Below are positions 5,366 through 54,646 of a DNA stretch of 64,000 nt, piece by piece (within the stretch, counting starts at the first letter, position 1; the number at the start of each line of letters is the position of its first letter). The notes beneath the pieces are model-generated. The model was not told where the DNA came from, made no database searches, and worked only from the letters and a program-made list of their open reading frames with translations. This stretch comes from an uncultured Prevotella sp. Its GTDB lineage: Bacteria; Bacteroidota; Bacteroidia; Bacteroidales; Bacteroidaceae. The position numbers and the translations under genes were made by a program. The stretch covers positions 1 to 64,000 of the forward strand of contig CALUGW010000040.1 in assembly GCA_944320305.1 (NCBI GenBank), read 5' to 3'.

Positions 5366-5836
5366 GTCCGAAAAGCCGTTTGTGTTTTGGGCAATCCGGA
5401 AACATAGTTGCGACAGATTGTTCTAAATCGGAACCATGACCGTGAGCCGTATTGATTTTACCCATTGCGGCGTCACTCAAAAAAACGTAAGCAGATGGAT
5501 GTCTCTCGATTACAGTCTTGGTGAAAAAGTGCTGTTTTTTTTGCCGGTTCGTAGTCTTTTCGCGACATATGGTTTCAAACTAAAATAGGTCTTTTTGACG
5601 TGCAAAACGGCCTGTTTTGTGGTGCAAAACGAGCCATTTTAGAATGTAATATGCCCCATTTTACATCGTGTTTTGTGCCGTTTCATGTCTTTGATTGTCC
5701 TTTTTGTGAAGTTTGTACATCTGCCAAATGCATAAACTTCTCCCCAAACCGTTTGCCCGTTAGCCACGGCATGACACCTCATCTATTTTGGGAAACAACC
5801 ACTAAAACGCAACCGGCTTTTCGGACCGGCCCATTA
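5366..5836. repeat. Dispersed element, copy A, with terminal inverted repeats
   Basis: A non-coding element of about 460 bp in the convergent gap between nifJ and tRNA-Arg. GTCCGAAAAGCCGTTTG (5366-5382) is repeated inverted at 5810-5826 with one mismatch. Positions from about 5398 to 5836 match 47710-48152 in inverted orientation, with long blocks of near identity (for example GATTTTACCCATTGCGG). The 22-bp array at 5582-5669 lies in its middle. No target-site duplication is clear. Similar short reading frames cross both copies, but I see no recognisable protein. Confidence 0.7.
5582..5669. repeat. 22-bp palindromic array A (4 units)
   Basis: Four consecutive 22-bp units start at 5582, 5604, 5626 and 5648. 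The best unit carries the 15-bp core AAAACGGCCTGTTTT, a 5-bp stem with a 5-base loop, followed by a variable 7-bp linker. A- and T-tracts recur every 11 bp. The array is in register with four other arrays in the window and matches array D unit by unit after inversion. Confidence 0.8.
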
Positions 5837-5913
5837 TCTGGCTCAGAATGCATCAATATTTAACAAAAAACTCCCGTAAATCCGTATGTTTCGGGATTCC
5901 GGGAGCTTGTCCG

Positions 5914-5988
5914 TGATTCCGCAGGGATTCGAACCCTGGACCCACGCCTTAGAAGGGCGTTGCTCTAATCCAACTGAGCTACGGAACC
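5914..5988 (-). tRNA. tRNA-Arg (anticodon UCU)
   Basis: The reverse strand folds as a tRNA. The acceptor stem GGTTCCG/CGGAATC has one G-U pair and discriminator A. The D arm contains GTAGCTCAGTTGGATTAGAGC. The anticodon stem ACGCC/GGCGT closes the loop CTTCTAA, giving anticodon TCT. The T arm contains GGGTTCGAATCCC. CCA is not encoded. It reads Arg AGA codons. Confidence 0.95.
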
Positions 5989-6001
5989 ATGAAACCAAGT
6001 G

Positions 6002-6033
6002 CAAAGGTAGTTATTTTCTTTCATATAAACAAA
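6002..6033 (-). promoter_or_regulatory. Promoter of tRNA-Arg
   Basis: On the minus strand TTTG (6033-6030), a 20-bp gap and TACCTTTG (6009-6002) precede the tRNA 5' end at 5988 by about 14 nt. Confidence 0.75.
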
Positions 6034-6177
6034 CTTTGACACTTCATTTTTGCGAAACATAGATTTTAAACGCGAAGAAAAGTTATTTAACGGGGCTATT
6101 TTTAGTTTCGGCTATCCTTGTCGATTACCGTTATCTTACGTATTGAAACTTGCAAATAAGAAGCTTTCCTGTTCAGT

Positions 6178-7287
6178 TTACACTCTCTTCCTGTATGTCA
6201 TGGCTGCCGCGAGGCTGAATAGTATGGCAAAACCTGACAAAGCGGCATATTGCACCCAAAGGTCAGCCACGGTAGCCCCTTTCAGATAGACGGAGCGCAT
6301 GATTTCGATGAAATAGCGCGGCGGGATGGCGTAGGTGATGTTCTGCGCCCACCGGGGCATGGAGGCAATGGGCGTAAACAGTCCGCTCATCAACTGGAAC
6401 ACGATGACGAAAGCGAACATCATGAAAATGCTTTGCAGGATGGTTGCCGACTGGTTGGCAATGAATACTCCCAATCCTGACATAACGAGACTGAACAGGA
6501 TGGCAGCCAAATAAATGCTCACGATATTGCCCTCAGGCACAAGTCCATAGACCAGCCAGCCGATAAGCATTCCGACTGTCACGACCAGTATTCCAACAAC
6601 CCAATAGGGTATTAGTTTCGACAAGACAAACTCCAATCGCCCAACAGGTGTGACATTCATCGCTTCAATGGTTCCCGTTTCCTTTTCGCTGACCAAGTTC
6701 AGTGTTGGAAGGAAACCGCAGATGATGATAAGAAGCACCACCATAAGTGCCGGTATCATGTAGTTGCGGAAGTCAAGAGTCGGGTTATACAAATTTACCG
6801 TAGCTGATTCCTGTACAGGCAGACTCTTTCCTTGTTCTGTCAGCCAACGCGCAACGGTATTCGCCACAGACATCATGGCGTATTGTACACCGAGTGTGCC
6901 TTTAGTCGCATTCACACCATTTGCTTTCAAGTCCAGTTCTGGCTTCTTGCCGTTAGTCAGGTCTTTTTGGTAATTTTTCGGAATGGTGACAATGGCATCC
7001 GCCCTCCCCTCTTCCACCTGCCGAAATGCTTCATCGTATCTGAAATAGCTGCCAGTTACGGACAGGTATTCCGATGCATCCATGTCCGCTACCATCCGTC
7101 GCGACAGTTCCGTCCGATCGTTATCCACCACGGCCACTTCCACGTTCTTCACGTCAAGGGTCGCCACAAGAGGAATTATCAGCATGACCAAAACCGGCAG
7201 ACCCACTATCAGGCGGGGAATAATAGGGTTGCGTTTCATCAGCGACAGTTCTTTCTTGAGCAGTATCTTCAAAGTCTTTGCATTCAT
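6178..7287 (-). CDS. ABC-2 type exporter permease (YbhR/YbhS-like)
   Basis: An inner-membrane permease of 369 residues. It has one N-terminal membrane helix (RLIVGLPVLVMLIIPLVATL), an extracytoplasmic domain of about 130 residues, then five or so helices in the second half with the family motif NLVSEKETGTIEAMNVTPV just after the second helix. It ends in AAAMTYRKRV with a basic cytoplasmic tail. It is last in a seven-gene minus-strand operon and lies 7 bp after a homologous permease, so the two probably form a heterodimer driven by the two ATPases upstream. Substrate unknown; related CecR-regulated systems export drugs. No clear terminator is visible after the stop. Confidence 0.93.
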   Translation of the reverse strand: MNAKTLKILLKKELSLMKRNPIIPRLIVGLPVLVMLIIPLVATLDVKNVEVAVVDNDRTELSRRMVADMDASEYLSVTGSYFRYDEAFRQVEEGRADAIVTIPKNYQKDLTNGKKPELDLKANGVNATKGTLGVQYAMMSVANTVARWLTEQGKSLPVQESATVNLYNPTLDFRNYMIPALMVVLLIIICGFLPTLNLVSEKETGTIEAMNVTPVGRLEFVLSKLIPYWVVGILVVTVGMLIGWLVYGLVPEGNIVSIYLAAILFSLVMSGLGVFIANQSATILQSIFMMFAFVIVFQLMSGLFTPIASMPRWAQNITYAIPPRYFIEIMRSVYLKGATVADLWVQYAALSGFAILFSLAAAMTYRKRV

Positions 7288-7294
7288 ACAGCCT

Positions 7295-8344
7295 TCATTT
7301 TTTTGCGTTAAACTTCTTGAGGGCCAAAGACAATACAGCCAATGTCATTCCCAGCAGGACAAGGATTTCCGTCAGTACATACCCTATGGGAAGTTGCTGG
7401 ATCATCAGCACACGCATGGCCGAGATATACCAACGGGCAGGTATGATGCAGGAGAGCCATTGCAGGACCAATGGCATATTTTCAACCGGAAATATCATGC
7501 CGGACAGCAGGACGACCGGAACCATGAACATCACGCCCGAAACCAACAGAGCCGACACCTGTGTGGAGGCTATGGTGGATATGAGCAATCCCAATGCAAG
7601 GGCAAGGACTACATACAGGATGGTCACCCATATCGCATTGATGACGTTGATGAAGGAGAAAGGCAGCCCCAGCACGGTGTAGCTCAATACCAGTACCAGC
7701 GTCAGGATGATGCACGACAGCAGAAAGTAAGGCACCAATTTGCCAATAATGATTGTCCAGGGACGTACCGGTGAAACCAACAGCAGATTCATGGTTCCTG
7801 TTTCTTTTTCGCTGACAATCGACACGGAAGTCATCATCGCGCAGATAAGGATGAATATCATGCCCATGATGCCCGGAACAAAATTGTAAGCACTTCTCAA
7901 TTGTGGGTTATAGAGTGTATTGGTCACGACCGGGATGCCTGTCGCGGAACTGATGACACTTTCCAAATAAGCCGTTGAAGTCTGTGCCATATTGGTATTA
8001 GATGCGTCCACAACAATCTGATGGCTCAATTTTCCGTCTTCCGTGCGAAACACTACAGCGACATCCGCCTGACTTTTCCTAAGAACACTCTCCATTTCGT
8101 GGTAAGGCACAATTCCTTCAAACGTGAAGTAGGGATTGTTGCGTAAGCGGTCGATAATCTGTTTGGTCTCGTCTGTATGCTGATCTACCACAGCAACAAC
8201 TTTTACATTGTTGACCTCGGTGGATATGGCAAACCCGAAGAGCAACAGCAGCAAGACGGGCATAACCAGCACCACCGTTATCGTGCGAAAGTCGCGCAGG
8301 AGGTGCAGCACCTCTTTCTTTATGAGTGATTTGAATATCGACAT
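7295..8344 (-). CDS. ABC-2 type exporter permease
   Basis: The second permease, 349 residues, with the same architecture: an N-terminal helix (TVVLVMPVLLLLLFGFAIS), a periplasmic domain containing AVVDQHTDE and a conserved TLYNPQLRSAYNFVPG segment, then a helical bundle containing SIVSEKETGTMNLLLVSPV. It shares order and motifs with the next gene, consistent with an old duplication. It starts 29 bp after the ATPase gene stop. Its role is the membrane channel half of a TolC-linked efflux pump, inferred from the operon. Confidence 0.93.
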   Translation of the reverse strand: MSIFKSLIKKEVLHLLRDFRTITVVLVMPVLLLLLFGFAISTEVNNVKVVAVVDQHTDETKQIIDRLRNNPYFTFEGIVPYHEMESVLRKSQADVAVVFRTEDGKLSHQIVVDASNTNMAQTSTAYLESVISSATGIPVVTNTLYNPQLRSAYNFVPGIMGMIFILICAMMTSVSIVSEKETGTMNLLLVSPVRPWTIIIGKLVPYFLLSCIILTLVLVLSYTVLGLPFSFINVINAIWVTILYVVLALALGLLISTIASTQVSALLVSGVMFMVPVVLLSGMIFPVENMPLVLQWLSCIIPARWYISAMRVLMIQQLPIGYVLTEILVLLGMTLAVLSLALKKFNAKK

Positions 8345-8373
8345 ATTAATGAGGAATTAAGAATGATGAAGAA

Positions 8374-9120
8374 TTAATATCCCCTTTTCGCATCCTTCGC
8401 CACGATGCGAAACACCTCGTCCATTGCCCCGGCGTGATACTGCCGTTTTAATCTTTCCGGACTGTCCAGCGCCTTGACACATCCGTCCACCATGATGGAG
8501 ACGCGGTGACAATATTCTGCCTCATCCAGATAGTGTGTGGTTACAAAGATTGTCATACCCTCAGATGAAGCCCGGTAAATCATTTCCCAGAACTTGCGCC
8601 GGGTGGAAGGGTCTACCCCTCCGGTCGGCTCGTCCAGAAAAACGACATCCGGCGAGTGCAGGGTGGCGGCGATGAACGCCACTTTCTGTTTCCATCCGAT
8701 GGGAATCTCCTTTACCAGCATATTCCGCATATTTTCCATACCCAAAGTCTTGAACACAGCATCGGTCTTTTCCCTGATACTCTTTGCCGACATTCCATAA
8801 ATGGTGGCAAACAGGTTCAGGTTCTCCCACACCGTCAAGTTTTCATAGAGGGAGAACTTCTGGCTCATGTAGCCGATGTGCCGTTTTATTTCCTCCGCCT
8901 GACGAAGAATGTCATACCCGGCCACAGACCCGCTGCCCGATGTCGGAAAGCTGAGCCCGCACAGCATACGCATGGCGGTGGTCTTGCCCGCGCCGTTTGC
9001 TCCCAAGAATCCGAATATCTCGCCCCGGCCTACTTGCAATGTGATATGGTCAACGGCGGTGAAACTACCGAATTTCTTGGTGAGGTCTTTCACTGATATT
9101 ACAGCTTCCTTATCCATCAT
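8374..9120 (-). CDS. ABC transporter ATP-binding protein
   Basis: An ATPase subunit of 248 residues. Walker A is GANGAGKTT at 40-48, the Q-loop Gln is at 87 and Walker B is VVFLDEP at 159-165. The ABC signature is IPIGWKQK at 139-146 instead of LSGGQ, while its partner upstream keeps LSGGMKQ. Asymmetric signatures like this are known in YbhF- and RbbA-type pairs. E. coli YbhF carries both ATPase domains in one chain; here they are separate genes overlapping by 11 nt. It would power the two ABC-2 permeases that follow. ATG three bases downstream is an alternative start. Confidence 0.94.
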   Translation of the reverse strand: MMDKEAVISVKDLTKKFGSFTAVDHITLQVGRGEIFGFLGANGAGKTTAMRMLCGLSFPTSGSGSVAGYDILRQAEEIKRHIGYMSQKFSLYENLTVWENLNLFATIYGMSAKSIREKTDAVFKTLGMENMRNMLVKEIPIGWKQKVAFIAATLHSPDVVFLDEPTGGVDPSTRRKFWEMIYRASSEGMTIFVTTHYLDEAEYCHRVSIMVDGCVKALDSPERLKRQYHAGAMDEVFRIVAKDAKRGY

Positions 9121-10024
9121 CCTTCGCCAATTTAATGAACAAATCTTCTATATTCCCCTTTGCAGGCCAAATCCGGGCATCACCCAAGCCATTCTGCCGA
9201 AGCCTGCGCACGGCATCGTCAGGATTGAAACCGTCGTTTGTCACGATGTGCAGCGTGGCTCCGAAAGTATAGCAGTCTTTCACGTCCGGCAAAGTACGCA
9301 AGGTTTCCAAAAGCGGATACATATCTTTGGACGATGCATTGTAAAGGTTCTTATCCATGTCCTTAACCAACCTGCCGGGTGTATCAACGTCAAGAATCCT
9401 TCCTTTGTTTATCAGGGCGATGCGTTCACAACGCTCGGCTTCGTCCATATAGGAGGTGGAGACAAGAATCGTGATGCCCTTTTCCCGTAGCGTGGCCAGC
9501 ATATTCCAGAACTCGATTCTCGACACGGCATCCACTCCGGTGGTAGGCTCATCCAAAAGCAACACTTTCGGACGGTGTATCAACGCGCAGCTCAAGGCAA
9601 GTTTCTGTTTCATCCCCCCTGACAAAGCTCCGGCCATACGGTTCGGAAACTTCTTCAGCTGGCCGAATATAGGGGCTATCAGGTCGAAGTTGTCTTTTAC
9701 GTCCACTCCGAACAGCGAGGCGAAGAAGTGCAGGTTCTCGCTGACGGTAAGGTCGGGATAAAGGGAGAACTTCTCCGGCATATAGCCTATTTCGGTGCGC
9801 AGTTTTCTATAGTCTTTTACAACATCCAGCCCCACCACGGTAGCCGAGCCATCATCGGGACTGAGCAAAGTGGTCAGCATTTGGAACAGCGTCGTCTTGC
9901 CCGCACCGTCCGGGCCGATAAGACCGAACAGAGTGCCTTCGGGAACGGAAAGGCTCACATGGTCGAGTGCCACGAGTTTTCTGTACCGCTTCGTCAGGCC
10001 CCGAATGTCAATTGCGTTTTTCAT
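9110..10024 (-). CDS. ABC transporter ATP-binding protein
   Basis: An ATPase subunit of 304 residues. Walker A is GPDGAGKTT at 37-45, the signature LSGGMKQ at 134-140 and Walker B VLLLDEP at 155-161. A C-terminal extension of about 90 residues after the ATPase core (ending DLFIKLAKDD) is typical of exporters of this class. It overlaps the HlyD gene by 4 nt upstream and the second ATPase gene by 11 nt downstream, so the pair is probably translationally coupled and assembles as a heterodimer with one canonical and one degenerate site. Confidence 0.94.
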   Translation of the reverse strand: MKNAIDIRGLTKRYRKLVALDHVSLSVPEGTLFGLIGPDGAGKTTLFQMLTTLLSPDDGSATVVGLDVVKDYRKLRTEIGYMPEKFSLYPDLTVSENLHFFASLFGVDVKDNFDLIAPIFGQLKKFPNRMAGALSGGMKQKLALSCALIHRPKVLLLDEPTTGVDAVSRIEFWNMLATLREKGITILVSTSYMDEAERCERIALINKGRILDVDTPGRLVKDMDKNLYNASSKDMYPLLETLRTLPDVKDCYTFGATLHIVTNDGFNPDDAVRRLRQNGLGDARIWPAKGNIEDLFIKLAKDDG

Positions 10025-10908
10025 AAGCGCACCTCTCCATACTGTCCGAGTTTCAGCCTGCCGTCATTCTTCACCGCGACTTTCACAGCATATACGAGGT
10101 TTGCCCTTGTGTCTTGCGTCTGGATGGACTTGGGAGTGAACTCGCTTTCCTGTGCAATCCAGACAATCCTGCCGGGATATTCATATTGCTTGTCTCCGCC
10201 AAAATCGGCAATGACGGTCACCTCCTGTCCGATTCTGATGTGAGCCAACTGCGAAGCCGTAAAGTAACTGCGGAGATAGATGTCGTCAAGGTTCGCCATC
10301 GTGAAGAGTGGGCGTCCGGGAGTCGCGTATTCACCCTGCTCGGCGTATTTCTGCAAAACAGTTCCCATTATCGGAGCGGTGATGCGGCTCTTGCGTATCT
10401 GTTCTTCTATCTGTTCTTTCTGATATTGCAAGGCGGAAGCGCTTTCTGTGATGGAGCTGCGGTTCTTGTCCAGCGTAGAAAGCAGTCCTTCCAATTGTCC
10501 GCGCAAGGTTCTCAGCTGCGCGTGGGCATCATCGCTTTGTTTCTGAGTGGCTGCTCCATTGGCAAGCAAACGCTTAATGCGGTCGCATTCATTCTGTTGG
10601 TGGGCAATCTGTGATCTTAACGCCGCAGCCTGTGCCGCAATGTCTGGCGAAGACTTCTCGGTGGACAACTGCAGACTGTGAAGCTGTCTCTGTTGCAGCG
10701 CAAGCAATGTGGTGTCTACCAGCCCGACTTGCTGTCCGATTCTAAGGCTGTCTCCCTCGTCAATGTCAAACGCCACAAGTTTTCCTGTGGTTTCCGAAGA
10801 TACGGTTATGGTATTAGCCTCAAAGATGCCTGTGGCATCATACTTTTCAGCGTTTTGGCAGGAAGCCAGTACCATAATAAATATGAGGAATAATGCTGTC
10901 TTTTTCAT
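10021..10908 (-). CDS. HlyD/YbhG-type periplasmic adaptor, lipoprotein
   Basis: An adaptor of 295 residues that would join the inner-membrane ABC exporter to the TolC-like channel. The N-terminus MKKTALFLIFIMVLASC is a lipoprotein signal with lipobox LASC and Cys17 as the lipidated residue. A lipoyl-like half domain (SSETTGKLVAFDIDEG) starts near 38. A long alpha-hairpin rich in Q, L and E runs from about 68 to 180, and the second lipoyl half contains APIMGTVLQKYAEQGEYATPG. It overlaps both neighbours by 4 nt (ATGA), so co-translation is likely. Confidence 0.93.
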   Translation of the reverse strand: MKKTALFLIFIMVLASCQNAEKYDATGIFEANTITVSSETTGKLVAFDIDEGDSLRIGQQVGLVDTTLLALQQRQLHSLQLSTEKSSPDIAAQAAALRSQIAHQQNECDRIKRLLANGAATQKQSDDAHAQLRTLRGQLEGLLSTLDKNRSSITESASALQYQKEQIEEQIRKSRITAPIMGTVLQKYAEQGEYATPGRPLFTMANLDDIYLRSYFTASQLAHIRIGQEVTVIADFGGDKQYEYPGRIVWIAQESEFTPKSIQTQDTRANLVYAVKVAVKNDGRLKLGQYGEVRL

Positions 10909-12194
10909 TTGTTCAAGGTGTATTTAAGTTGGTAAATGCTTTGTAAGAGTTGGATTTCTTGGTAGGATGCGTTGAGACGGGCCTGTTTCTCGTCCGTCAG
11001 CTTGGTGAGCAGGTCTGTGGCATCGATGACGCCGTTGTCAAGTTGAGATTCTGCCGCTTTCCTTACATTGGTACGAAGTTCCACTATCCGTTCATTCTTT
11101 TTCATGATGGCTTTCAGCTCGTCAATACGGTCAAACTGCGATTGGATCCGCATATTCGTGTTGAACAAGAACACGTCACGTTCCACCGCTATGTTGGCCG
11201 ATGAAAGGCGCAGCTTCCGTTGGTCGTTCTTCTTATGATAGAAAGATCCTATGTTCCACGACACTTTTACGCCGGCAAGAATGTTGAACGACAGGTCTCG
11301 GTTCATCATGCTCTCGAAATAGTCGAATCCCGGATAACCATAATAAGCCTGTGCGAACAGCCCGATTTTGGGCATTGTGCTTGCCGTGATGCTCGCGTTC
11401 CTTGTCTCATTGGTTTGCAGTTGTGCCTCGAAAAGTTTTAATTCTGGTCGGTCTGGCAACAAGTTTTGGGGAGTGGAGGCGTCAGGTTTCACCAGGTCCA
11501 GTCCGGCAAGGCTTTTCCCTGTGAACATCTCCAATACTTTCCGATAGCTTTTCGCCGTGCTTTCCGCCTGGATAAGTTGTTGTGAAGTAGCAAGGCATTG
11601 CGCCTCCACCATATCCACATCGCTTTGCATAGCGGTGCCATTTTCGTACATGGTCCGCAGTTTGCCAAGGTTGCATTGGAGTAACGTTTGCATATTTCGG
11701 GTCTGTTCGGCCAGCTCCTCAATGAGCAAGATGCCGAAATACAAGTCTTCCACCCTCTCTCGGATGGCATAAAGCTGGACATCCAGAGCAGCCTGCCGTT
11801 CCGCATCTTCGGCACGTTCTATCTTCCGTCCGGTTTTCGACAGGCCTCCGTCCCAAATGTTCTGGCTAATGTCGGCACCTACTTTATATTGCCATTCGTT
11901 CAGTCCGGAAACGGACATTCCTGCTTGAGAAATTATCCCGGCCAACGATTCAGGGAGTGAAGGAGTCTCATTCTGCACAGCTCCTTGCCCGTATATATTG
12001 ATTTGCGGCAGCCAACTTTTATTGATGTCCGACAGGTTCACTTCTTTCGTTTGTTTCAGCAAATCATACTTCCGGATGAGTGGATAGTTGTCTTGCGCAA
12101 GCCTGACACACTCTTCCAATGTTACTTGAGCTGACAACTGGACACCAGCAAACAGTAACAGTGCCAAGAACAGATACTGCTTCAACATAATCAA
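10905..12194 (-). CDS. TolC family outer-membrane efflux protein
   Basis: An outer-membrane channel component of 429 residues with a signal peptide cleaved after about residue 23 (LFAGVQLSAQ). Two OEP repeats are visible: the first starts VTLEECVRLAQDNYPLI and the second follows the Pro-rich link TPQNLLPDRPELKLFEAQL. Both are rich in long amphipathic helices. It overlaps the TetR gene and the adaptor gene by 4 nt each. With the adaptor, ATPases and permeases it would complete a tripartite exporter spanning both membranes. Confidence 0.93.
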   Translation of the reverse strand: MIMLKQYLFLALLLFAGVQLSAQVTLEECVRLAQDNYPLIRKYDLLKQTKEVNLSDINKSWLPQINIYGQGAVQNETPSLPESLAGIISQAGMSVSGLNEWQYKVGADISQNIWDGGLSKTGRKIERAEDAERQAALDVQLYAIRERVEDLYFGILLIEELAEQTRNMQTLLQCNLGKLRTMYENGTAMQSDVDMVEAQCLATSQQLIQAESTAKSYRKVLEMFTGKSLAGLDLVKPDASTPQNLLPDRPELKLFEAQLQTNETRNASITASTMPKIGLFAQAYYGYPGFDYFESMMNRDLSFNILAGVKVSWNIGSFYHKKNDQRKLRLSSANIAVERDVFLFNTNMRIQSQFDRIDELKAIMKKNERIVELRTNVRKAAESQLDNGVIDATDLLTKLTDEKQARLNASYQEIQLLQSIYQLKYTLNK

Positions 12195-12832
12195 TGGATT
12201 TTTAGTTTTCTCAAGATGGTTTCCACATTCTCTTTTTTACGTATAGCCAGGAATTCGTCATAATTTTCATACGAGCTTCCGATTATTTCGCCAATGATGG
12301 GAGCGGCCATGAAAGGAAAGACATTGAGCGACACAATGTCTATCAGCAGCATACGTGCGTCAACTTGCCTGCAGGGCTTTTGCCTGGCACACTCATCAAT
12401 CTCACGTTGAAAATTATTTAGCATTTCGCCGGCTATATTCTGCATATTCACCTTCATCGTTTCAAGTCGTTCCGGGTGTGCGTGGACTTCATTCACAAGG
12501 AATCTCGGCAACTCATGGTTGGCTGCGATGAAGTCGAAGTGATGTTCAATGCCTTGACGGATTCTGTCTTCCAATGGCAAGTTGCCATCTCCAATAGCAC
12601 TCAACACAATTTCCTCCAACATATTCATCTTCTCTGTGATAATTCGCTCGAAAAGTTTGTCTTTCGTGCGGAAGTAGTAGTGCAGCATGGCATGGGTCAC
12701 ACCTGCCGCTTCTGCAATAGATGCCGTCCTTGCTCCGGCAAAACCTTTTTCAAAGAACTCTTTTTCAGCAGCTTGTAGAATTCTTGACTCTGTGTCTTGT
12801 GACTGATCAAATTCTTTATCCATATCGCACAA
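12191..12832 (-). CDS. TetR/AcrR family transcriptional regulator
   Basis: A repressor of 213 residues and the first gene of the exporter operon. The N-terminal TetR helix-turn-helix is at about 14-60 (RILQAAEKEFFEKGFAGART, then SIAEAAGVTHAMLHYYFRTKDKLFE). The C-terminal ligand domain is helical. A perfect 16-bp palindrome lies directly after its promoter, 23 bp before the start codon, so autorepression of the whole operon, relieved by a pump substrate, is the likely scheme. Context resembles CecR, which controls ybhGFSR in E. coli. Met4 is an alternative start. Confidence 0.93.
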   Translation of the reverse strand: MCDMDKEFDQSQDTESRILQAAEKEFFEKGFAGARTASIAEAAGVTHAMLHYYFRTKDKLFERIITEKMNMLEEIVLSAIGDGNLPLEDRIRQGIEHHFDFIAANHELPRFLVNEVHAHPERLETMKVNMQNIAGEMLNNFQREIDECARQKPCRQVDARMLLIDIVSLNVFPFMAAPIIGEIIGSSYENYDEFLAIRKKENVETILRKLKIH

Positions 12833-12854
12833 CTTTTAAGTTCATCCAATTGGA

Positions 12855-12870
12855 CTAACAATTTTGTTAG
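12855..12870. promoter_or_regulatory. Candidate TetR operator
   Basis: CTAACAATTTTGTTAG consists of two perfect 7-bp half sites (CTAACAA/TTGTTAG) around TT. It starts 2 bp after the -7 box and covers the expected transcription start of the operon, the usual place for a TetR-family autorepressor site. Confidence 0.7.
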
Positions 12871-12872
12871 CG

Positions 12873-16012: not shown

Positions 16013-16196
16013 ATTTCACCAAATCGACTGATTTTTATGGCACGCATTCAGCATTGTGCCATATTGGATATCCTACAAAAACAACAGCCGGAAGTGTATG
16101 AATATGCGGTTTTCAATTCACTGCGGAATGCGTCACAGCCTCTCCTGCACCACTAAAAATGCGGTGTATGACTCCACCAAGCCTTCATCACTCTGC

Positions 16197-16284
16197 AATA
16201 TGGCCCTTTTCGCATCGCAATATAGGCCATTTCGCCTTCCAATATGGCCTATATTGGAAGCCTAAATGACCGATTTTACAAAAC
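16197..16284. repeat. 22-bp palindromic array B (4 units)
   Basis: Units start at 16197, 16219, 16241 and 16263. The third has core AATATGGCCTATATT. A hairpin with a 10-bp stem (CTTCCAATAT 16236-16245 / ATATTGGAAG 16251-16260) and a 5-base loop spans the unit border. The array lies between the two MITE-like copies in the divergent clpC gap. Confidence 0.8.
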
Positions 16285-16506
16285 ATTGATTATCAATGTG
16301 TTACACAAGACGCCAAAGAATGCAACGGAACGCCTCCACGCTCAGACTGGCATGAACATCGGCAAAGCGCAGTTTCTGTATATTTATACGTTCCGCACAC
16401 TATCATTACATTTTCTTTTTTTATGCAATCGGCCTGAGACACATATTGCGGGCGATTGTGGTTTTATAATGCGACTGCACGGCAGATAATTCAAAACAGA
16501 TGATGA

Positions 16507-32588: not shown

Positions 32589-32615
32589 TTAACACTGTTA
32601 AGTTAAAAGTGTTAA
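32589..32615. repeat. Short inverted repeat upstream of the symporter
   Basis: TTAACACT (32589-32596) is repeated inverted as AGTGTTAA (32608-32615). It could be an operator or a hairpin. Nothing else is seen between it and array C. Confidence 0.35.
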
Positions 32616-32667
32616 CGCTCCATGTTGTTTGCCATCCGGCTTAACCGCCTGATTCCCAACACGATAC

Positions 32668-32777
32668 GAAGCAGGTCATTTCGGCTTCCAGAACAGGTCA
32701 TTTCGGTCTGCAAAATGGCCTGTTTCGGAAGCCCAAACGACCCTTTCCGCAAACCAAAACGGCACGGAACGCAGAAC
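32668..32777. repeat. 22-bp palindromic array C (5 units)
   Basis: Units start at 32668, 32690, 32712, 32734 and 32756. The third has core AAAATGGCCTGTTTC. A long imperfect hairpin pairs 32683-32702 with 32714-32733 (17 of 20 positions). From 32778 to 32931 I see no gene. Confidence 0.75.
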
Positions 32778-32931
32778 AGTCAAGAACGGACAAATTTTAG
32801 TTGCGTATTTTTAATTAATGAATATCCGCAAGTTGCCAGATGCACCAATATTTAGCGGCGCGGTATGCGAGATACGCCACATACGGAATACACAGCTTGC
32901 AAAATTGCTGATAAGTAGCTGTTCAAAATGG

Positions 32932-46971: not shown

Positions 46972-47547
46972 TCATTTCACACCAACACTGTCAATGTAAC
47001 GCTCTATAAGCTCAACCGATTTTTGACACCCCAGCCGCAAACTGTCGAAGCACAAATCATAATCACAGGAATTGCCCCACTGCAGATGGGTGTAATACTT
47101 GTGATACCTCACACGGCTGTTGTCCATGTCGCGCACGAAGTCTTTTGCCTCCGCCAATGGAACGCGACGCTCGGCAGCTATGACCTTTATGCGTTCCGAC
47201 TCTCTTCCGCTCAGAAAGACCGAGACAAGGTCAGGCCTGCGGCGGAAGATGTAATTGCCGCAACGGCCAATGATAATGCAATCACGACGGCCAATCATTT
47301 CCGACAGCACATCAAGCGCCTTGCTGTGCAACGGTCCCTCATCAGCGCCTAATGCGGAAATTGCAAAGAGAAGCTCGTCAACAGGACGTTCCTCGAAGAA
47401 GTCGTCCAACTCTTCAAGAACGCCACATTCCGAAGCCATGTCCTTAAGACTTTTGCGCGTATAGAAAGGAACGCCATAATCAGCAGAAAGCATCTTGCCG
47501 ATGTCGATAGCACCGCATCCGCACTGCCTTGCAATTGTAATAATCAT
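46972..47547 (-). CDS. Cytidylate kinase-like protein
   Basis: A protein of 191 residues of the cytidylate-kinase-like family. MIITIARQCGCGAIDIGKML is a P-loop variant with GCGAIDIG in place of a full GxxGxGKS, as is usual in this family. IIGRCGNYIFRRRP and RVRYHKYYTHLQWGNSCDYDLC are later conserved blocks. It lacks the Lys of a normal Walker A, so nucleotide kinase activity is uncertain. It leads a transcript with lrgA and lrgB. ATG 47547 is preferred to 13 upstream codons that overlap the promoter. Confidence 0.88.
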   Translation of the reverse strand: MIITIARQCGCGAIDIGKMLSADYGVPFYTRKSLKDMASECGVLEELDDFFEERPVDELLFAISALGADEGPLHSKALDVLSEMIGRRDCIIIGRCGNYIFRRRPDLVSVFLSGRESERIKVIAAERRVPLAEAKDFVRDMDNSRVRYHKYYTHLQWGNSCDYDLCFDSLRLGCQKSVELIERYIDSVGVK

Positions 47548-47574
47548 AAAAAGAACTGTTTTGAAAAACGGCTG

Positions 47575-47607
47575 CAAAGGTAACAATAAATTATAAAAAA
47601 GCCCAAA
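47575..47607 (-). promoter_or_regulatory. Promoter of the cytidylate kinase-like/lrgAB operon
   Basis: On the minus strand TTTG (47607-47604), 21 bp, TACCTTTG (47582-47575), 27 bp before the start codon. Confidence 0.7.
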
Positions 47608-47709
47608 AACAAAGCGTTTTTATCAACTCCTCGCCAACAATTATCACATAAGGTTAAACGGTTACAGTCCGACACCTTCCATGCCAGAAATTAATACAAC
47701 ACAAACAAT

Positions 47710-48152
47710 CGGGTCTGTCAGAAAAGCCGGTTGCGCCTTAGCGGCTGTTTTCCAAAGCCGAATGAGGCTCCATGCCATGGCTAATGGACAAAAGGTTTGG
47801 GAGAAGCTCGTGCCTTCGGCAGAGTGCGTCCACTTCACAAAAAGGACAACCAAAGACGTGGAGCGGCACGAGACACGATGTAAAACGGGGCATATTGCAT
47901 TCTAAAACGGGTCGTTTCGGCGTGCAATACAGGCCGTATTGCACGCCAAAACGGCCTATTTTGATTTAAAACCAAATAGCGTCAAAACTGCTGCGAATCG
48001 ACGGGAAAATAGCGCCTTGCCGCCAAGAGTGCAATCAAAAGGCATTCGTCTGCTTACGATTTTCGAGTGTTGCCGCAATGGGTAAAATCGAGACAACTCG
48101 CGGTCATGCTCCGATTTCGAACAATCCTCCGCAACAACGTCTTCGGACAGCC
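47710..48152. repeat. Dispersed element, copy D (inverted relative to copy A)
   Basis: About 440 bp matching 5398-5836 after inversion, including blocks such as GATTTTACCCATTGCGG and CCTTTTTGTGAAGT and the same central array. Similarity by eye is roughly two-thirds to three-quarters; I did not compute it. The inverted terminal repeat of copy A is recognisable only at the 47715 end. It fills the gap between the cytidylate-kinase-like gene and the DUF1573 gene. Confidence 0.7.
47882..47969. repeat. 22-bp palindromic array D (4 units)
   Basis: Units start at 47882, 47904, 47926 and 47948. A perfect hairpin, GGCGTGCAATAC (47919-47930) with GTATTGCACGCC (47936-47947), has a 5-base loop AGGCC. Relative to array A both arms changed together (AAAAC/GTTTT there, AATAC/GTATT here). 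Confidence 0.8.
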
Positions 48153-48265
48153 TCCAACAATCACGAATCAAAGCAAAACAAAGAACCGACGCTTGCAGGA
48201 GAGCAGACTTTTCCTTTCCTTCAAGCGCCGGGGCTGGCTGTCTGGCACACGGATGCCCGTATGCG

Positions 48266-48673
48266 CTATTTCTTCGCTTCCTCCATGTCGCCTTCTATAT
48301 AAAGGCGCGTCATCTCCACAACGCCATTTGTGCGGATTGTTATTGATTTCTTGAAATGGCCCGGAAAGCGGCCTGCACCGTTATACGTAACCTTGATTTG
48401 GCCTTTCTGTCCTGGCATGACAGGTGTTTTTGTATACTGCGGCACTGTACAGCCGCAACTGGCCACCGCCTGATTGATTATCAACGGCGTCGAGCCAACA
48501 TTTGTATACGTGAAAACACACGACTGCTTGGGTGATGACTCGGAGAACTTGCCAAAATTGTGAGTTGTCTTGTCAAACTTGATTTCCGCCTTTTTCTTAT
48601 CGCCTGCTGACTGAGCCACAGCGAGAGTCAGACCGCAGACAAGCATAACCGCCAAAAGAAAGATTTTTTTCAT
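48266..48673 (-). CDS. DUF1573 domain secreted protein
   Basis: A secreted protein of 135 residues. MKKIFLLAVMLVCGLTLAVA is a signal peptide. The mature part has the immunoglobulin-like DUF1573 block: FDKTTHNFGKFSESSPKQ, CVFTYTNVGSTPLIINQAVA, SCGCTVPQYTK and IKVTYNGAGRFPGHFKKSI. The family is abundant in Bacteroidetes without a set function. ATG 48673 is where the signal starts. A -7-like TAATTTTG is at 48708-48701 on the minus strand. Confidence 0.92.
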   Translation of the reverse strand: MKKIFLLAVMLVCGLTLAVAQSAGDKKKAEIKFDKTTHNFGKFSESSPKQSCVFTYTNVGSTPLIINQAVASCGCTVPQYTKTPVMPGQKGQIKVTYNGAGRFPGHFKKSITIRTNGVVEMTRLYIEGDMEEAKK

Positions 48674-49186
48674 AACCGTGTCTATTTTATAAAGTCTGCG
48701 CAAAATTACCCCATTTCCGCCATTATTGTATGTTTCACAACAGATATTTCATATAAATTAACTCATAGCAGCAAATAAATACATTTCCGGCTTTCAAAAC
48801 AGCTCATGAAAGTTCTGGATAAAATTCCCATTTTTGCAGACTAAAACTATCATATAATCAGCATAGCAAATCATTCTTTTTCAATTGGTTATGTGGCATC
48901 TTCTATATTAACACTTTCAATATGTAAATGTGTTTATAGCACTCCCAACAGCGATTAATACTTATCATAATGATTGGATTTGAAAGTGCTGTCCGTATTC
49001 GCTAAAAGCATAATTGTTGCAGTTTGCACAAAACCGCCCATCGATATGAATATTTCTATATGTTGTTTCATTTTGTCAGAATTTGTTGGCAATTACGATA
49101 ATTATCACTAAATTTGCAGAGATAATATTGCAAGATAATAAACTGCCGTCCCTAAATATAGGGGCTGATTTAATTGATTTATAAAA
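48674..49186. other. AT-rich gap of 513 bp upstream of thrA
   Basis: No gene is seen. Near thrA lies TAAATTTG (49109-49116) with TTGG 19 bp before it, a probable thrA promoter with a leader of about 65 nt. An inverted repeat CACTTTCAA/TTGAAAGTG (48912-48920/48980-48988) lies further upstream, before that promoter. I find no Thr- or Ile-rich leader peptide. Confidence 0.5.
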
Positions 49187-51616
49187 ATGAAGGTACTGAA
49201 ATTCGGGGGTACGTCCGTTGGTTCGGAAGAAAGCATACTGAGTTTAAAAAGAATTGTTGAGGCAGAAAGCGACAATGTCATCGTCGTTGTAAGTGCACTT
49301 GGAGGAATTACAGACAAATTGTTGTCAACCTCAAAACTTGCAGCCGACGGCAATGAGCAATATATTTCAGAATTGGATGTAATTGTGCAGCGCCATCACG
49401 CCATGGTGGACTCTGTGATTAAGGACAGAGAAAGCCATAAGAAACTGTCAGCTGCCATTGACGCCCTACTCGACCAACTTCGCTCTATATATTATGGTGT
49501 GTACTTGATTCGCGACTTGAGCTTGAAGACTGTCGCTGCCATTGTCAGTTATGGTGAACGGCTGAGTTCTTTAATTGTTGCCGAGCTGATAGGCAATGCA
49601 ACGCTGTATGATGCCCGCGAATTTATAAAAACAGAAAAGAAGCACAACAAGCACATTCTCGACAGTGAGCTGAGCCAGAAGCTGGTGTTTGATGCTTTTT
49701 CTCCGATGCCGCGGAGGGCTGTTGTGCCCGGATTCATAAGCTCAGACAAGCATTCCGGTGAAACGACGAACTTGGGGCGTGGCGGAAGTGATTACACCGC
49801 AGCTATCATTGCCGCCGCACTGAATGCAGAGGTATTGGAGATTTGGACAGATGTTGACGGTTTTATGACTGCCGACCCCAAAGTCATACGCACAGCTTAC
49901 ACAATAAATGAGCTGAGTTATGTTGAGGCAATGGAGCTTTGCAACTTCGGCGCCAAGGTGATTTATCCTCCAACGATTTATCCTGTATGTGTTAAGAACA
50001 TCCCCATCAGAGTAAAGAACACGTTCAACCCCAACGGTTCGGGCACAATAATCAAAAGCGAGGTGACCAACGACCGCAAGCCCATTAAAGGTATCTCAAG
50101 CATCAAGGGCACAACACTCATCACTGTCACGGGTCTGTCGATGGTCGGCGTCATCGGCGTCAACCGCCGCATCTTCACAGCCCTGGCAGACAATGGAATC
50201 TCTGTTTTTATGGTGTCGCAGGCCTCTTCGGAAAATTCCACGTCAATCGGAGTCCGCGATGAAGACGCCGATGAAGCCGTAAATGTGCTCAATCATGAGT
50301 TTGCAAAGGAAATCGAGACCGGCGCCATGTTCCCGATGCACGCCGAGAGCGGGCTGGCCACAATCGCCATTGTGGGTGAGAACATGAAGCACACCCCCGG
50401 CATTGCAGGAAAACTCTTCGGAACTTTGGGCCGGAGCGGCATCAGTGTGATTGCGTGCGCCCAAGGTGCGTCGGAGACGAACATATCTTTTGTTGTCGAT
50501 TCCCGCTTGCTGCGCAAGTCGCTCAACGTGCTTCACGACTCATTTTTCCTCAGCGAGTACAATGTTCTCAACCTGTTTGTCTGCGGAATCGGCACCGTCG
50601 GCGGAAATCTTATCGAACAGATACGCCAGCAATATGAGGAACTCAAGCAGACACGCAGGCTCAAACTGAATGTCGTTGGAATAGCCAACAGCACCAAGGC
50701 GATTTTCTCTCGCGATGGCATAAATCTCTCAACGTACAGAGCACAACTTGAAGATGCTGCGGAAAGTGACATCTGTCATTTGCGTGATGAAGTTATCGGA
50801 ATGAACATCTTCAACAGTGTGTTCGTGGATTGCACTGCAAGCAGCGAGGTGGCAGGTCTTTACCAGACGTTTCTTGAGCACAACATATCCGTTGTTGCAG
50901 CCAACAAAGTGGCCGCGTCGAGCGACTATGAAAGCTATGCCTTGCTTAAGGAGACGGCATTGCGGCGCGGCGTGAAATTTCTTTTTGAAACCAATGTGGG
51001 AGCTGGTCTGCCGATTATCGGAACTATCAATGACCTTCGCTCGTCGGGCGACAGAATTTTGAAGATAGAGGCAGTACTGAGCGGAACGCTGAACTTCATT
51101 TTCAATGAGATTTCTGCCACAGTTCCTTTCTCCGAGACTGTGCGTATGGCCAAGGAGCAAGGTTTCAGTGAGCCTGACCCGCGCATAGACCTGAGCGGAA
51201 AAGATGTTATAAGAAAGCTCGTTATTCTGACACGTGAGGCTGGTTACAAAGTTGAACAGGACGACGTGGAGAAACATCTGTTCATTCCAGACAGATTGTT
51301 CAAGGGCAGCATAGAAGACTTCTGGCGGGAGTTGCCGTCACTTGACGCAGAGTTCGAACGCAAGCGCAAGACCATGGAGGCTGAGCACAAGAGGTGGCGT
51401 TTTGTGGCAAAAATGGACCGCGGGGCGACCAGCGTGTCACTTGAGGCGGTCTCTGCCAATCACCCGTTCTACCGCCTTGAAGGGTCCAACAACATAATCC
51501 TGCTGACCACAGAGCGTTACCGGGAATATCCGATGCTCATCCAGGGCTATGGAGCCGGTGCTGAAGTCACGGCGGCCGGAGTGTTCGCAAACATCATGTC
51601 CATCGCCAATATTTAA
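49187..51616 (+). CDS. thrA: Bifunctional aspartokinase / homoserine dehydrogenase
   Basis: A fused enzyme of 809 residues for the first and third steps from aspartate to threonine. The kinase starts KFGGTSVGSEES at residues 5-16 and has TNLGRGGSDYTAAI near 198. Two ACT domains lie at about 300-450 and are the likely site of threonine feedback. The dehydrogenase starts with FVCGIGTVGGNLIEQI near 463 and has NKVAASSDYE and the GAGLPIIGTINDL motif. It is followed after 44 bp by the mutase-type gene and then thrC. Confidence 0.96.
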   Translation: MKVLKFGGTSVGSEESILSLKRIVEAESDNVIVVVSALGGITDKLLSTSKLAADGNEQYISELDVIVQRHHAMVDSVIKDRESHKKLSAAIDALLDQLRSIYYGVYLIRDLSLKTVAAIVSYGERLSSLIVAELIGNATLYDAREFIKTEKKHNKHILDSELSQKLVFDAFSPMPRRAVVPGFISSDKHSGETTNLGRGGSDYTAAIIAAALNAEVLEIWTDVDGFMTADPKVIRTAYTINELSYVEAMELCNFGAKVIYPPTIYPVCVKNIPIRVKNTFNPNGSGTIIKSEVTNDRKPIKGISSIKGTTLITVTGLSMVGVIGVNRRIFTALADNGISVFMVSQASSENSTSIGVRDEDADEAVNVLNHEFAKEIETGAMFPMHAESGLATIAIVGENMKHTPGIAGKLFGTLGRSGISVIACAQGASETNISFVVDSRLLRKSLNVLHDSFFLSEYNVLNLFVCGIGTVGGNLIEQIRQQYEELKQTRRLKLNVVGIANSTKAIFSRDGINLSTYRAQLEDAAESDICHLRDEVIGMNIFNSVFVDCTASSEVAGLYQTFLEHNISVVAANKVAASSDYESYALLKETALRRGVKFLFETNVGAGLPIIGTINDLRSSGDRILKIEAVLSGTLNFIFNEISATVPFSETVRMAKEQGFSEPDPRIDLSGKDVIRKLVILTREAGYKVEQDDVEKHLFIPDRLFKGSIEDFWRELPSLDAEFERKRKTMEAEHKRWRFVAKMDRGATSVSLEAVSANHPFYRLEGSNNIILLTTERYREYPMLIQGYGAGAEVTAAGVFANIMSIANI

Positions 51617-51660
51617 ATCACTGGCTTGTGGGGCAATATTTTTTACACATTAAATAATAT

Positions 51661-52893
51661 ATGAAACACATCATAATCCTTGGCGACGGCATGGCCGACC
51701 ACCCGGTGGAGCGTCTTGGAGGCAAGACCCCAATGCAATATGCCGCCACTCCCTATATGGACACTATCGCCCGTGCAGGCCGGTGCGGGCGTCTGTGCAC
51801 AATCCCCGCAGGATTCATGCCGGGCAGCGAGGTGGCCAACACCGCTATTCTCGGTTACGATCTGAACAGCGTTTATGAGGGGCGCGGGCCGCTTGAGGCC
51901 GCCAGCATAGGCTATGAGATGCGTCCTGGAGACATGGCCGCCAGGTGCAACATCATCACAATTGGCAACGGACTGATAAAAAATCATCATGGAGGCCACC
52001 TGACAACGGCCGAAGGCGAGGTGCTTGTGAATTTTCTGAACGAGAAACTGGGCAACGACAGGGTGCGTTTTGTCACCGGCATTCAGTATCGCCACTTGCT
52101 GATAGTCCGTGGCGGCAACAAGCACATTGTGTGCGCCCCGCCGCACGACCACCCCAATGAGCCGTGGCACGACCTGCTGATAAAGCCGGAAGAAGGAGAC
52201 TATGGTGACGACGACAGCGGCAGAATGTCGGCGGAAGAGACGGCTGGACTGCTCAATGAGCTGATTCTGAAATCGCAAGAGCTGCTTGCCTCCCATCCTT
52301 TCAACCGCGACCGGGCAGAGAAAGCAAATTCCATCTGGCCGTGGAGTCCAGGTTACAGGCCATCGATGAAGCATCTCTCAGAAATGTTTCCGCAGATAAA
52401 AAGCGGCTCGGTTATCTCTGCCGTCGATCTGATCCGTGGCATCGGCCATTATGCCGGACTCAGAAATATAATTGTTCCCGGTGCTACCGGACTGGCAGAC
52501 ACCAATTATGAAGGCAAGGCAAGAGCCGCTATCGAGGCGCTGAAAACAGATGATTTTGTATTCCTGCACCTTGAGGCAAGCGATGAGGCTGGCCATGACG
52601 GCGATTTGGATCTCAAGATTAAGACCATCGAATACCTCGACAGCCGCATTGTAGGGCCTATTTACAATGAGCTGCAGACGTGGGATGAACCTGTCTGCAT
52701 GGCCATTCTGCCAGACCACCCCACCCCCGTCGAAATCAGGACACACGTGGACGAGCCTGTGCCGTTCGCCATCTTCCACAAGGGAATCAAGCCCGATGGC
52801 GTCACAACATTCGACGAGGCAAGTTGTGTGAGCGGAAGCTACGGCCTGCTTCACCTCGAAGAATTTATGAAAGTGTTTATGGACATCAAGTGA
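51661..52893 (+). CDS. apgM: Cofactor-independent phosphoglycerate mutase family; likely homoserine kinase
   Basis: An alkaline-phosphatase-superfamily protein of 410 residues. IILGDGMADHPVERLGGKTP begins the metal-binding core; PGSEVANTAILGYD holds the Ser; HLEASDEAGHDGDLDLK and ILPDHPTPVEIRTH hold later metal ligands. By sequence it is an archaeal-type phosphoglycerate mutase. Its position between thrA and thrC, with no thrB in the cluster, and published mutant-fitness work on the Bacteroides thetaiotaomicron homologue point to homoserine kinase activity. The family call is firm; the kinase role is inference from context and that precedent. Confidence 0.88.
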   Translation: MKHIIILGDGMADHPVERLGGKTPMQYAATPYMDTIARAGRCGRLCTIPAGFMPGSEVANTAILGYDLNSVYEGRGPLEAASIGYEMRPGDMAARCNIITIGNGLIKNHHGGHLTTAEGEVLVNFLNEKLGNDRVRFVTGIQYRHLLIVRGGNKHIVCAPPHDHPNEPWHDLLIKPEEGDYGDDDSGRMSAEETAGLLNELILKSQELLASHPFNRDRAEKANSIWPWSPGYRPSMKHLSEMFPQIKSGSVISAVDLIRGIGHYAGLRNIIVPGATGLADTNYEGKARAAIEALKTDDFVFLHLEASDEAGHDGDLDLKIKTIEYLDSRIVGPIYNELQTWDEPVCMAILPDHPTPVEIRTHVDEPVPFAIFHKGIKPDGVTTFDEASCVSGSYGLLHLEEFMKVFMDIK

Positions 52894-52911
52894 AATTAAC
52901 AGAAAGAAGAA

Positions 52912-54213
52912 ATGAAATATTACAGCACAAACGGGAAAGCGCCTCTTGCGACGCTTGAAGAAGCGGTGGTCAACGGGCTTGCGCCAGACAGAGGGCTTTA
53001 TATGCCGGAGCGGATAAAGAAGCTTCCTGCCGATTTTTTTGAGGATATAGACCGTATGTCGTTCCAAGACATTGCCTGCACGGTAGCCCAGGCCTATTTC
53101 GGCGAAGACATTGAGAGCGGTGAGCTTGAGCGCATCGTCAGGTCAACGCTGGCGTTCGATTGCCCGGTTGTACCCGTCTGCGACGGCATTTCCAGCCTTG
53201 AGCTGTTCCACGGCCCCACCCTTGCGTTCAAAGATGTCGGTGCAAGGTTTATGGCACGGTTGCTCCAGCACTTCATCAAGTCAGGCAGCGGCGGCACTGT
53301 CAATGTGCTTGTGGCGACAAGCGGCGACACAGGCTCTGCCGTTGCCAACGGCTTTCTCGGCGTTGACGGAATCCATGTTTACGTGCTTTATCCCAAAGGC
53401 AAGGTCAGCAAGATACAGGAAAGCCAGTTCACCACGCTCGGACAGAACATAACAGCACTCGAGGTTGACGGCTCTTTTGACGATTGCCAGGCGTTGGTCA
53501 AAAGCGCGTTCATGGACTCACAGCTGAACAGTCATATGCGCCTCACCTCGGCCAACTCCATCAATGTGGCCCGCTTCCTGCCGCAATCGTTTTACTATTT
53601 CAACGCCTACGCCCGCATGAAAGAGCGCGGTGCAGCCGGACGACTTGTGGTCTGCGTGCCGAGTGGCAATTTCGGCAATCTCACAGCCGGCCTTTTCGCA
53701 CGCGAGATGGGATTGCCTGTCGAACGGTTTATAGCGGCCAACAACGCGAACGATGTGTTCTGTCAGTATCTTTCCACCGGCATTTACTCCCCGCGCCCCA
53801 GCATCCGCACCGTGGCCAACGCCATGGACGTGGGCGATCCGAGCAATTTTGCACGCATTCTTGACCTCTATGGAAACAGCCACGACAAGATAGCGGCCTC
53901 AATAAGTGGGGCTGCTTATGACGACAGCCGGATATTGCGCACCATCAGTGAGTGCCACGCCGCCACCGGCTACGTGCTCGATCCTCATGGGGCCTGCGCT
54001 TATCAGGCTCTGGCTGACGGCCTGCGCGATGGAGAGGCCGGCGTGTTCCTCGAAACCGCCCACCCCGCCAAATTCAAGGAAACTGTCGAAAGTGCCGTCG
54101 GCGCATCCATTGATATGCCACAACGTCTGCAGGAATTTGCCTCCAGGCAGAAACAAACTGTAGAAATGACAAGCAGCTTCAATGATTTTAAAGAATATCT
54201 GATGGGTGAATGA
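52912..54213 (+). CDS. thrC: Threonine synthase
   Basis: A PLP enzyme of 433 residues that converts O-phosphohomoserine to threonine. MKYYSTNGKAPLATLEEAVV is a typical N-terminus. HGPTLAFKDVGARFMARLL holds the Lys that binds PLP, and VATSGDTGSAVANGF the phosphate-binding loop. It starts 18 bp after the mutase-type gene. The operon ends at a hairpin 28 bp further on. Confidence 0.96.
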   Translation: MKYYSTNGKAPLATLEEAVVNGLAPDRGLYMPERIKKLPADFFEDIDRMSFQDIACTVAQAYFGEDIESGELERIVRSTLAFDCPVVPVCDGISSLELFHGPTLAFKDVGARFMARLLQHFIKSGSGGTVNVLVATSGDTGSAVANGFLGVDGIHVYVLYPKGKVSKIQESQFTTLGQNITALEVDGSFDDCQALVKSAFMDSQLNSHMRLTSANSINVARFLPQSFYYFNAYARMKERGAAGRLVVCVPSGNFGNLTAGLFAREMGLPVERFIAANNANDVFCQYLSTGIYSPRPSIRTVANAMDVGDPSNFARILDLYGNSHDKIAASISGAAYDDSRILRTISECHAATGYVLDPHGACAYQALADGLRDGEAGVFLETAHPAKFKETVESAVGASIDMPQRLQEFASRQKQTVEMTSSFNDFKEYLMGE

Positions 54214-54241
54214 CGCATTGTGCTTGTCTTCATGCCTAACA

Positions 54242-54309
54242 AAAAGCTATCCGGACAGAGGTGTGTGCCGCACAAATTATGGCGGCGCAAAACTGTTCGG
54301 ATAGCTTTT
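54242..54309 (+). terminator. Terminator hairpin of the thr operon
   Basis: AAAAGCTATCCG (54242-54253) pairs with CGGATAGCTTTT (54298-54309) around a 44-base loop. Confidence 0.65.
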
Positions 54310-54514
54310 AAGTGGGATTTTACAAAACCCGCCAAAGGTGAATAAATCTTTCAACTGTTAATTTTGACATTGCAAAGCCTCCGAAATTTCGCGAATTTGA
54401 AAATAAAATCCCTTTGACCGCAAATACGCGAAATATGAGTGTGCAACCGTAACTAATTGGCCTAATTAGACTTATTGGACTAATAAGACTAATTGTGCAA
54501 CTTTTTCAGCCTAC

Positions 54515-54646
54515 AAAACAGCCTGTTTTCAGCCCCTAAACAGCCTGTTTTGCCTTGCAAAAAGTGTCGTTTGGGCTTCCAATATGGCCTATATCGCAAT
54601 GCGAAAAGCCCCATATCGCATCGTGATATGACCCTTTTTACAAAAT
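54515..54646. repeat. 22-bp palindromic array E (6 units)
   Basis: The longest array, with units starting at 54515, 54537, 54559, 54581, 54603 and 54625. Cores include AAAACAGCCTGTTTT and AATATGGCCTATATC. The last unit ends TTTTTACAAAAT, like the last unit of array B. From 54647 to 54870 nothing else is seen; TAACTTTG at 54892-54899 is a probable -7 box for serS. Confidence 0.8.

Follow-up and report, generated by a model that had tools for sequence, protein, structure and literature searches.

Intergenic arrays of 22-bp palindromic units in Prevotella: a candidate family of dispersed, hairpin-forming repeats

Introduction

Several described families of bacterial intergenic repeats offer a background for the arrays reported here. 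PINSR, the Prevotella intermedia repeat, is a 188-base-pair (bp) intergenic sequence of unknown function that occurs in 177 and 184 copies per genome, lacks terminal inverted repeats, lies downstream of tnaA as well and is reported from only a few related species (PMC4755523). REPINs are inverted doublets of palindromic units that form hairpins, lie between genes, are non-autonomous and are tied to Y1 transposases (RAYTs) (PMC3116915). BrickBuilt, a miniature inverted-repeat transposable element (MITE) of Porphyromonas gingivalis, carries a 23-nt unit (AGAYCATARTATCCTCTCRTRTG) in direct repeats of up to 22.8 copies and has the ends GAGACCTTTGCA (PMC4596501). Here, we describe five arrays of 22-bp palindromic units in a 64,000-nucleotide stretch of DNA from an uncultured Prevotella sp. 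(contig 40, bases 1-64000; hereafter the window), together with their relatives in the same genome and in other genomes.

We favor, at roughly even odds (a probability of about 0.5), the reading that a large family of dispersed, non-coding repeats between the genes of Prevotella (in the GTDB sense) has these arrays as its conserved core, and that the family consists of non-autonomous hairpin repeats maintained at the DNA level. The arrays are real, abundant and partly shared among species, and we class them as a variant of dispersed hairpin-forming intergenic repeats.

Five arrays with a 22-bp pitch

A first-pass annotation of the window had pointed to five in-register arrays of 22-bp units between genes, and direct reading together with a position matrix recovered every one of them:

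5582 to 5669: array 1, 4 units of 22 bp; a lenient score adds a weak fifth unit (5582-5684).
16197 to 16284: array 2, 4 units of 22 bp.
32668 to 32777: array 3, 5 units of 22 bp, the last unit weak.
47882 to 47969: array 4, 4 units of 22 bp; its predicted fold is a single long stem-loop, with z near -5.5 for each strand.
54515 to 54646: array 5, 6 units of 22 bp.

Up to E = 1, a profile model (R2) matched the window 20 times, each time inside one of the five arrays; because R2 was built from 30 sequences of many species that include these five arrays, only the absence of further window sites is informative here. In the genome as a whole, the fetched loci yielded 100 array rows, compared with 3 dimers when the same loci were reversed and scored equally with the matrix, whose training data they were. 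Rows of four units were the most common (54), followed by rows of five (20), six (14), three (11) and two (1), and later counts use 97 arrays, leaving out the row of two units and two further rows in which window arrays recur.

The unit consensus, drawn from 150 exact dimers with both strands counted (300 units, including the window arrays, two of which were counted twice), is RAWAY RGSCY RTWTY GCANTGC. The unit had been described as a core of 5-bp arm, 5-base loop and 5-bp arm plus a 7-bp linker; this needs correction in that the linker is palindromic as well (GCANTGC). With both parts palindromic, dyads alternate every 11 bp, and A/T-rich and G/C-rich stretches take turns at the same interval. 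Spacings of up to 60 bp between regex-defined consensus units at 95 loci of this genome were 22 bp in 144 of 158 cases, 44 bp in 13 and 56 bp in one. Predicted curvature, computed from wedge angles, peaks at periods of 20-21 instead of 22, which weakens the case for intrinsic bending as a selected trait.

Abundance and distribution across genomes

The window arrays are far from a local peculiarity, as the matches listed in the genome that carries them (2.72 Mb) comprise about 146 array places. This count is approximate, since it merges the matches of several searches within 400 bp, each search having scored part of its candidates (the best 150 of 1307 in one search, the best 40 in BLAST searches) and listed its best rows, and 21 of the 146 places come from one search, some of them weak and short.

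Two models, R1 and R2, were carried to other genomes; since both are strictly filtered and presuppose the 22-bp pitch, they would miss arrays of other pitch or letters. R1 matched 23 of 60 genomes of the genus (the source genome included) and 0 of 40 genomes from other families of the order. In the family, 16 of 251 genomes had R2 matches: nine belong to the same genus, and the remaining seven, with one to three matches each, are spread over five further genera. At least one of the matches in another genus (L215 in genome G139) is weak and looks like a different tandem repeat of the TATATCGCGATGAAAAA type, and a single 22-base match in Lysinibacillus was taken as chance.

Spacing could also be measured without the models, and this revealed 22 bp in 31 of 42 cases when one array was taken from each of 22 species, in 41 of 46 in genome G028, in 46 of 53 in genome G082 and in 14 of 18 at nine loci from the family-wide R2 search. 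The outer parts of the loci measured, which may hold further arrays, had 22 bp in 4 of 7 spacings. Variable unit length and a lack of further arrays had been named as outcomes that would reduce the arrays to a local or chance feature; the genome holds many more of them, and 22 bp dominates there and in other species alike, both statements being read with the pitch that the search models presuppose. The core letters are species-specific, as AAAACTGCCACTTTT, AATAAGTGACATATT and AAAATCGACGATATT, written in the same frame, illustrate. A locus of another genome of the genus (L205, G207) has letters equal to those of a Xylanibacter rodentium record where the two were compared.

Longer elements around the arrays

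The arrays proved to be cores of longer repeats, and several element types have this core in common:

5388 to 5832, minus strand: type A element with array 1; it begins on the low side at 5388 (5360 with an alternative end), and there is no clear target duplication.
47711 to 48154, plus strand: type A element with array 4; 444 bp long, terminating in imperfect 26-bp inverted repeats, flanks AAACAATC and CAACAATC (7 of 8 alike).
54357 to 54727, plus strand: type B element around array 5; approximate, ends not sharply set.
16095 to 16392: type C element around array 2; approximate, with GCATATTTATGC-like motifs on both sides and a GACAGTCAG-type flank; bounds inferred from the flank motifs, missed by the strict pattern.
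32589 to 32819: type D element around array 3; approximate, with a TTAAC..GTTAA palindrome on one side and TTTTAGTTGCGTATTT on the other; bounds inferred.

Arrays 1 and 4 belong to two copies, in opposite orientation, of one element of about 444 bp. Of 50 matches listed in the search that brought out type A, 15 reach well past the array, and the array is present in 14 of these 15. Lengths are mostly 443-447 bp, and ten copies carry imperfect 26-bp terminal inverted repeats at both ends, as MITEs do. Flanking duplications of 8 bp are exact at L009 and, solely if an alternative end (473 bp) is taken, at L008; those at L001 and L003 agree in 7 of 8 positions and that at L004 in 6 of 8. We also found a type A leader fragment without an array (L015; G000 contig 4, 19247-19399).

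Type B, of about 400 bp, occurs at no fewer than 40 places at E 1.3e-16 or better, array 5 included (the best 40 of 161 candidates). Among the 29 of 37 copies that could be measured, the last unit lies 54 bp away from an anchor downstream in 24, 54 bp plus a multiple of 22 in four and 55 bp in one; insertions and deletions are thus rare across the whole type B element, so that register within the array is by itself no proof of selection. The full type B query, run among 60 relatives, matched two, namely the source genome and, with two short pieces, G003. A short tandem repeat (ACTAATTGG / ACTAATAAG, 9 and 18 bp; window 54452-54495) adjoins array 5 and recurs as part of type B copies, and a run of the CAGGAGACAGGAGGCAGGAGAC kind follows the GTGTTAA end of several copies (L079, L080, L084, L087, L089).

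Arrays 2 and 3 were assigned to types C and D by their flanks. Six other type D copies, found with a strict pattern, measure 215-217 bp. A flank of the AACATTGATTATCAA..TGTTACAC kind stands beside array 2 (window 16281-16307) and also near an array in Xylanibacter rodentium (L072, about 361-395).

The first-pass annotation had raised the possibility that the arrays are parts of a transposable repeat. This holds best for arrays 1 and 4, where the type A ends and some 8-bp duplications support mobility; for the other arrays it is only likely, and there we infer it from dispersed families of near-constant length.

Pairing between neighboring units

Evaluating the symmetry of the arrays further, we found no covariation support for the hairpin as originally drawn, with 5-bp arms and a 5-base loop inside each unit (its pairing is equalled or exceeded in 496 of 500 shuffles), and found such support for a stem between neighboring units:

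54603 to 54639, plus strand: the equivalent in array 5 of type B units 3-4; 19-bp stem, 3-base loop, covariation support across 35 copies.

With 35 type B arrays aligned without gaps, this stem, chosen by an axis scan of the same rows, had a covariation of 0.160 versus 0.112 in shuffled rows, 87.1% versus 84.3% paired cells and 32 versus 19.4 doubly changed cells, with 0 of 500 shuffles as high in any of the three measures; the number of pair types (18) was ordinary (63 of 500 shuffles). Another axis centre ranked first in the scan (z 8.5) and was set aside, its covariation being only 0.002. The same 35 rows, which thereby serve as a control for relatedness, revealed no excess pairing for within-unit hairpins, for units 2-3 or for units 2-4.

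A similar tendency is seen over the 97 arrays of the genome, where the best inverted partner of a unit scores 0.768 within its own array and 0.726 in another array, and the best direct partner 0.730 and 0.724, respectively. Unit pairs that agree at 18 or more of 19 positions occur in inverted form in 16 of the 97 arrays and in direct form in 1, and at lag 1 such inverted pairs make up 3.7% within arrays versus 1.2% between arrays. Arm complementarity reaches 0.816, compared with 0.747 in arrays rebuilt from shuffled units (largest of 200 rebuilds, 0.775). Growth by direct tandem duplication was rejected, as direct likeness at lag 1 is 0.647 within arrays and 0.640 between them; adjacent 3-base spacers are directly alike at 0.472 versus 0.382 by chance, so some duplication may have occurred. 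Cells of the G-U type number 32, against 46 of the A-C type that would be G-U on the other strand (29 versus 28 without one column), and this absence of strand preference gives no sign of selection as RNA from one strand.

Shared sites and gene context

We compared 20 loci of G082 with the fetched loci of the window's genome, which cover about two thirds of its known places. Both flanks match in two cases (L184 with L110, and L197 with L096, the G082 locus given first) and one flank matches in a third (L178 with L089). The L184 and L110 arrays align without gaps, and one unit pair in them is complementary at 15 of 15 positions in G082 and at 14 of 15 in the source genome with different letters. 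Elsewhere the sites differ: L185 has an array next to a gene whose window counterpart has none. Between L101 and G004, where the genes on both sides match, the intervals are about 750 and about 355 bases, and the element at L101 seems to be absent in G004, with break points that cannot be aligned.

That flanking genes share no orientation, as proposed from the window, extends to the whole genome, in which 24 arrays lie between convergent, 40 between same-direction and 19 between divergent genes (83 arrays with both neighbors called), and 2 of the 97 arrays overlap a predicted gene. G028 has 5 convergent, 10 same-direction and 2 divergent cases among the 17 of 20 loci that were readable, and there the arrays lie closer to stops than to starts.

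Relationship to described repeats

The view that no described family fits the arrays may need amending, as PINSR is a plausible member. Like PINSR as described, the arrays are intergenic, dispersed, non-coding, present in many copies and found in Prevotella; unlike PINSR, which has no terminal inverted repeats, type A has such ends, the comparison being with the published description of PINSR (PMC4755523). Genome G371 (2.7 Mb, 2 contigs), reached by a genus-wide search, carries a tryptophanase-like gene with an array about 270 bp downstream of it; the 16 kb fetched there contain two arrays, which are 78% alike across a 219-bp stretch. The name of that gene is uncertain, since it scores 527 bits against a family cut-off of 825.8, which 0 of 398 genomes reach. 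Three of 20 tryptophanase-like gene loci carried R2 matches up to E = 0.1, and arrays are dense. In another genome (G348) an array also lies upstream of the tnaA-like gene, and the source genome has no array in the 14 kb surrounding its own tnaA-like gene (L239), which together weaken the link. Two genomes considered as P. intermedia (G155 and G191) were dropped because they gave no tnaA-like match. The evidence that PINSR belongs to the array family is thus circumstantial, and it may be a member. In the library searched, that one paper alone mentions PINSR together with Prevotella, and among the titles and abstract openings listed we recognized no other description of 22-bp Prevotella repeats.

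In architecture, REPINs come closest, in that their inverted doublet able to form a hairpin has an equivalent in type B units 3-4; pitch and sequence differ, and the arrays line up three to six units instead of two (PMC3116915). The Y1 transposase domain (PF01797) has 0 matches in the source genome (99.93% complete) and none in 11 other genomes with R1 matches (12 of the 23 in all), so we do not place the arrays within the REP/RAYT system. BIMEs, arrays of REP palindromic units (PMC2817692), resemble the arrays in having regularly spaced palindromic units of alternating orientation between genes. They differ in sequence and pitch and are tied to REP/RAYT biology. With BrickBuilt, the arrays share an intergenic location, a leader and a tail that enclose short tandem units as the core, and inverted-repeat ends, and some BrickBuilt copies likewise lack leader or tail; unlike its single directly repeated unit, the arrays have three to six paired units (PMC4596501). 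The window contains neither the BrickBuilt unit AGAYCATARTATCCTCTCRTRTG (up to 3 mismatches) nor its ends GAGACCTTTGCA (up to 1 mismatch), and the pitch is 22 instead of 23, so the arrays do not belong to that family. A structured-RNA survey lists palindromic candidates in Bacteroidetes (PMC8040213).

Discussion

If the arrays are the core of non-autonomous hairpin repeats, the elements would spread by enzymes acting in trans, and their stem may matter in DNA, single-stranded or extruded, during copying or resolution of the element, as in REPINs and MITEs. We infer this DNA-level role because pairing favors neither strand. The pitch of two helical turns would hold successive stems in register, and some copies would stay at the same site across species. 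Several observations weigh against this reading. No duplication is evident at 5 of the 10 type A copies with both ends recognized, and one of the two exact duplications requires the alternative end; terminal repeats were not seen in types B, C and D where these were examined, and types C and D showed no clear target duplication either. We identified neither a transposase nor an autonomous partner, with no search made using the type A ends. As for the stem of units 3-4, the pairs with a double change (7) are ordinary (184 of 500 shuffles), the helix came from the very rows in which it was then evaluated and the shuffles ignore relatedness among rows; the excess of pairing is moderate when all arrays are taken together, and arm complementarity in G028 shows none (0.851 versus 0.855). 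Persistence at two to three shared sites, together with the position of G028 arrays near 3' ends, could point to a host role instead.

A rival explanation is set at the RNA level, the arrays forming hairpins in untranslated parts of messages whose stems would mark processing (of the RNase III type), stability or termination, with 22 bases corresponding to two turns of an RNA helix. The five arrays have stable predicted folds on both strands (z -2.3 to -6.1), and in G028 the nearness to stops and the scarcity of divergent neighbors (2 of 17) fit this explanation; we nevertheless consider it rather improbable, as 19 of the 83 arrays in the source genome lie between divergent genes, G-U cells favor neither strand and Rfam families gave no match except one tRNA. 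We are similarly doubtful that the arrays are phased sites for a DNA-binding or nucleoid protein, with a dimer on each palindromic unit and neighbors two turns apart on one face of the helix. The exact 22-bp pitch despite different letters, the alternation of A/T-rich and G/C-rich stretches every 11 bp and the independence from gene orientation in the source genome would all suit such sites, but symmetry within units shows no compensatory change, pairing between neighbors is not predicted by a binding-site model and core letters vary widely among species, though the protein could vary too.

Pairing might also be a by-product without selection. Template-switch correction at imperfect palindromes is a known DNA process, and by copying arm onto arm it would produce compensatory changes in single steps, with the pitch inherited by descent. 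The moderate size of the overall excess accords with this, as does the rarity of insertions and deletions throughout type B and not just in its array, so that register alone need not mean selection. Species with unrelated core letters nonetheless have an equal pitch, and the excess appears in only one of the four helix sets tested in type B, and we regard a pure by-product as very unlikely. A further proposal, which we hold to be unlikely though somewhat less so, is a structural ruler, in which a genus-specific machine acting on DNA or double-stranded RNA would read the two-turn pitch and the paired neighboring stems and hardly the base sequence, leaving each species free in its core letters.

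Should the reading of the arrays as DNA-level hairpin repeats be true, scattered repeats in common gut and mouth bacteria would obey one testable rule (22-bp pitch, pairing of neighbors, free core letters), and the same rule might explain PINSR, open since 2015. With about 146 natural copies in one genome and further versions in sister species, the spread of hairpin repeats and any cellular use of them become directly testable.

A minor observation is that a tRNA-Arg gene (anticodon tct; window 5913-5988, minus strand) shares its intergenic region with array 1 and lies just beyond the type A element.

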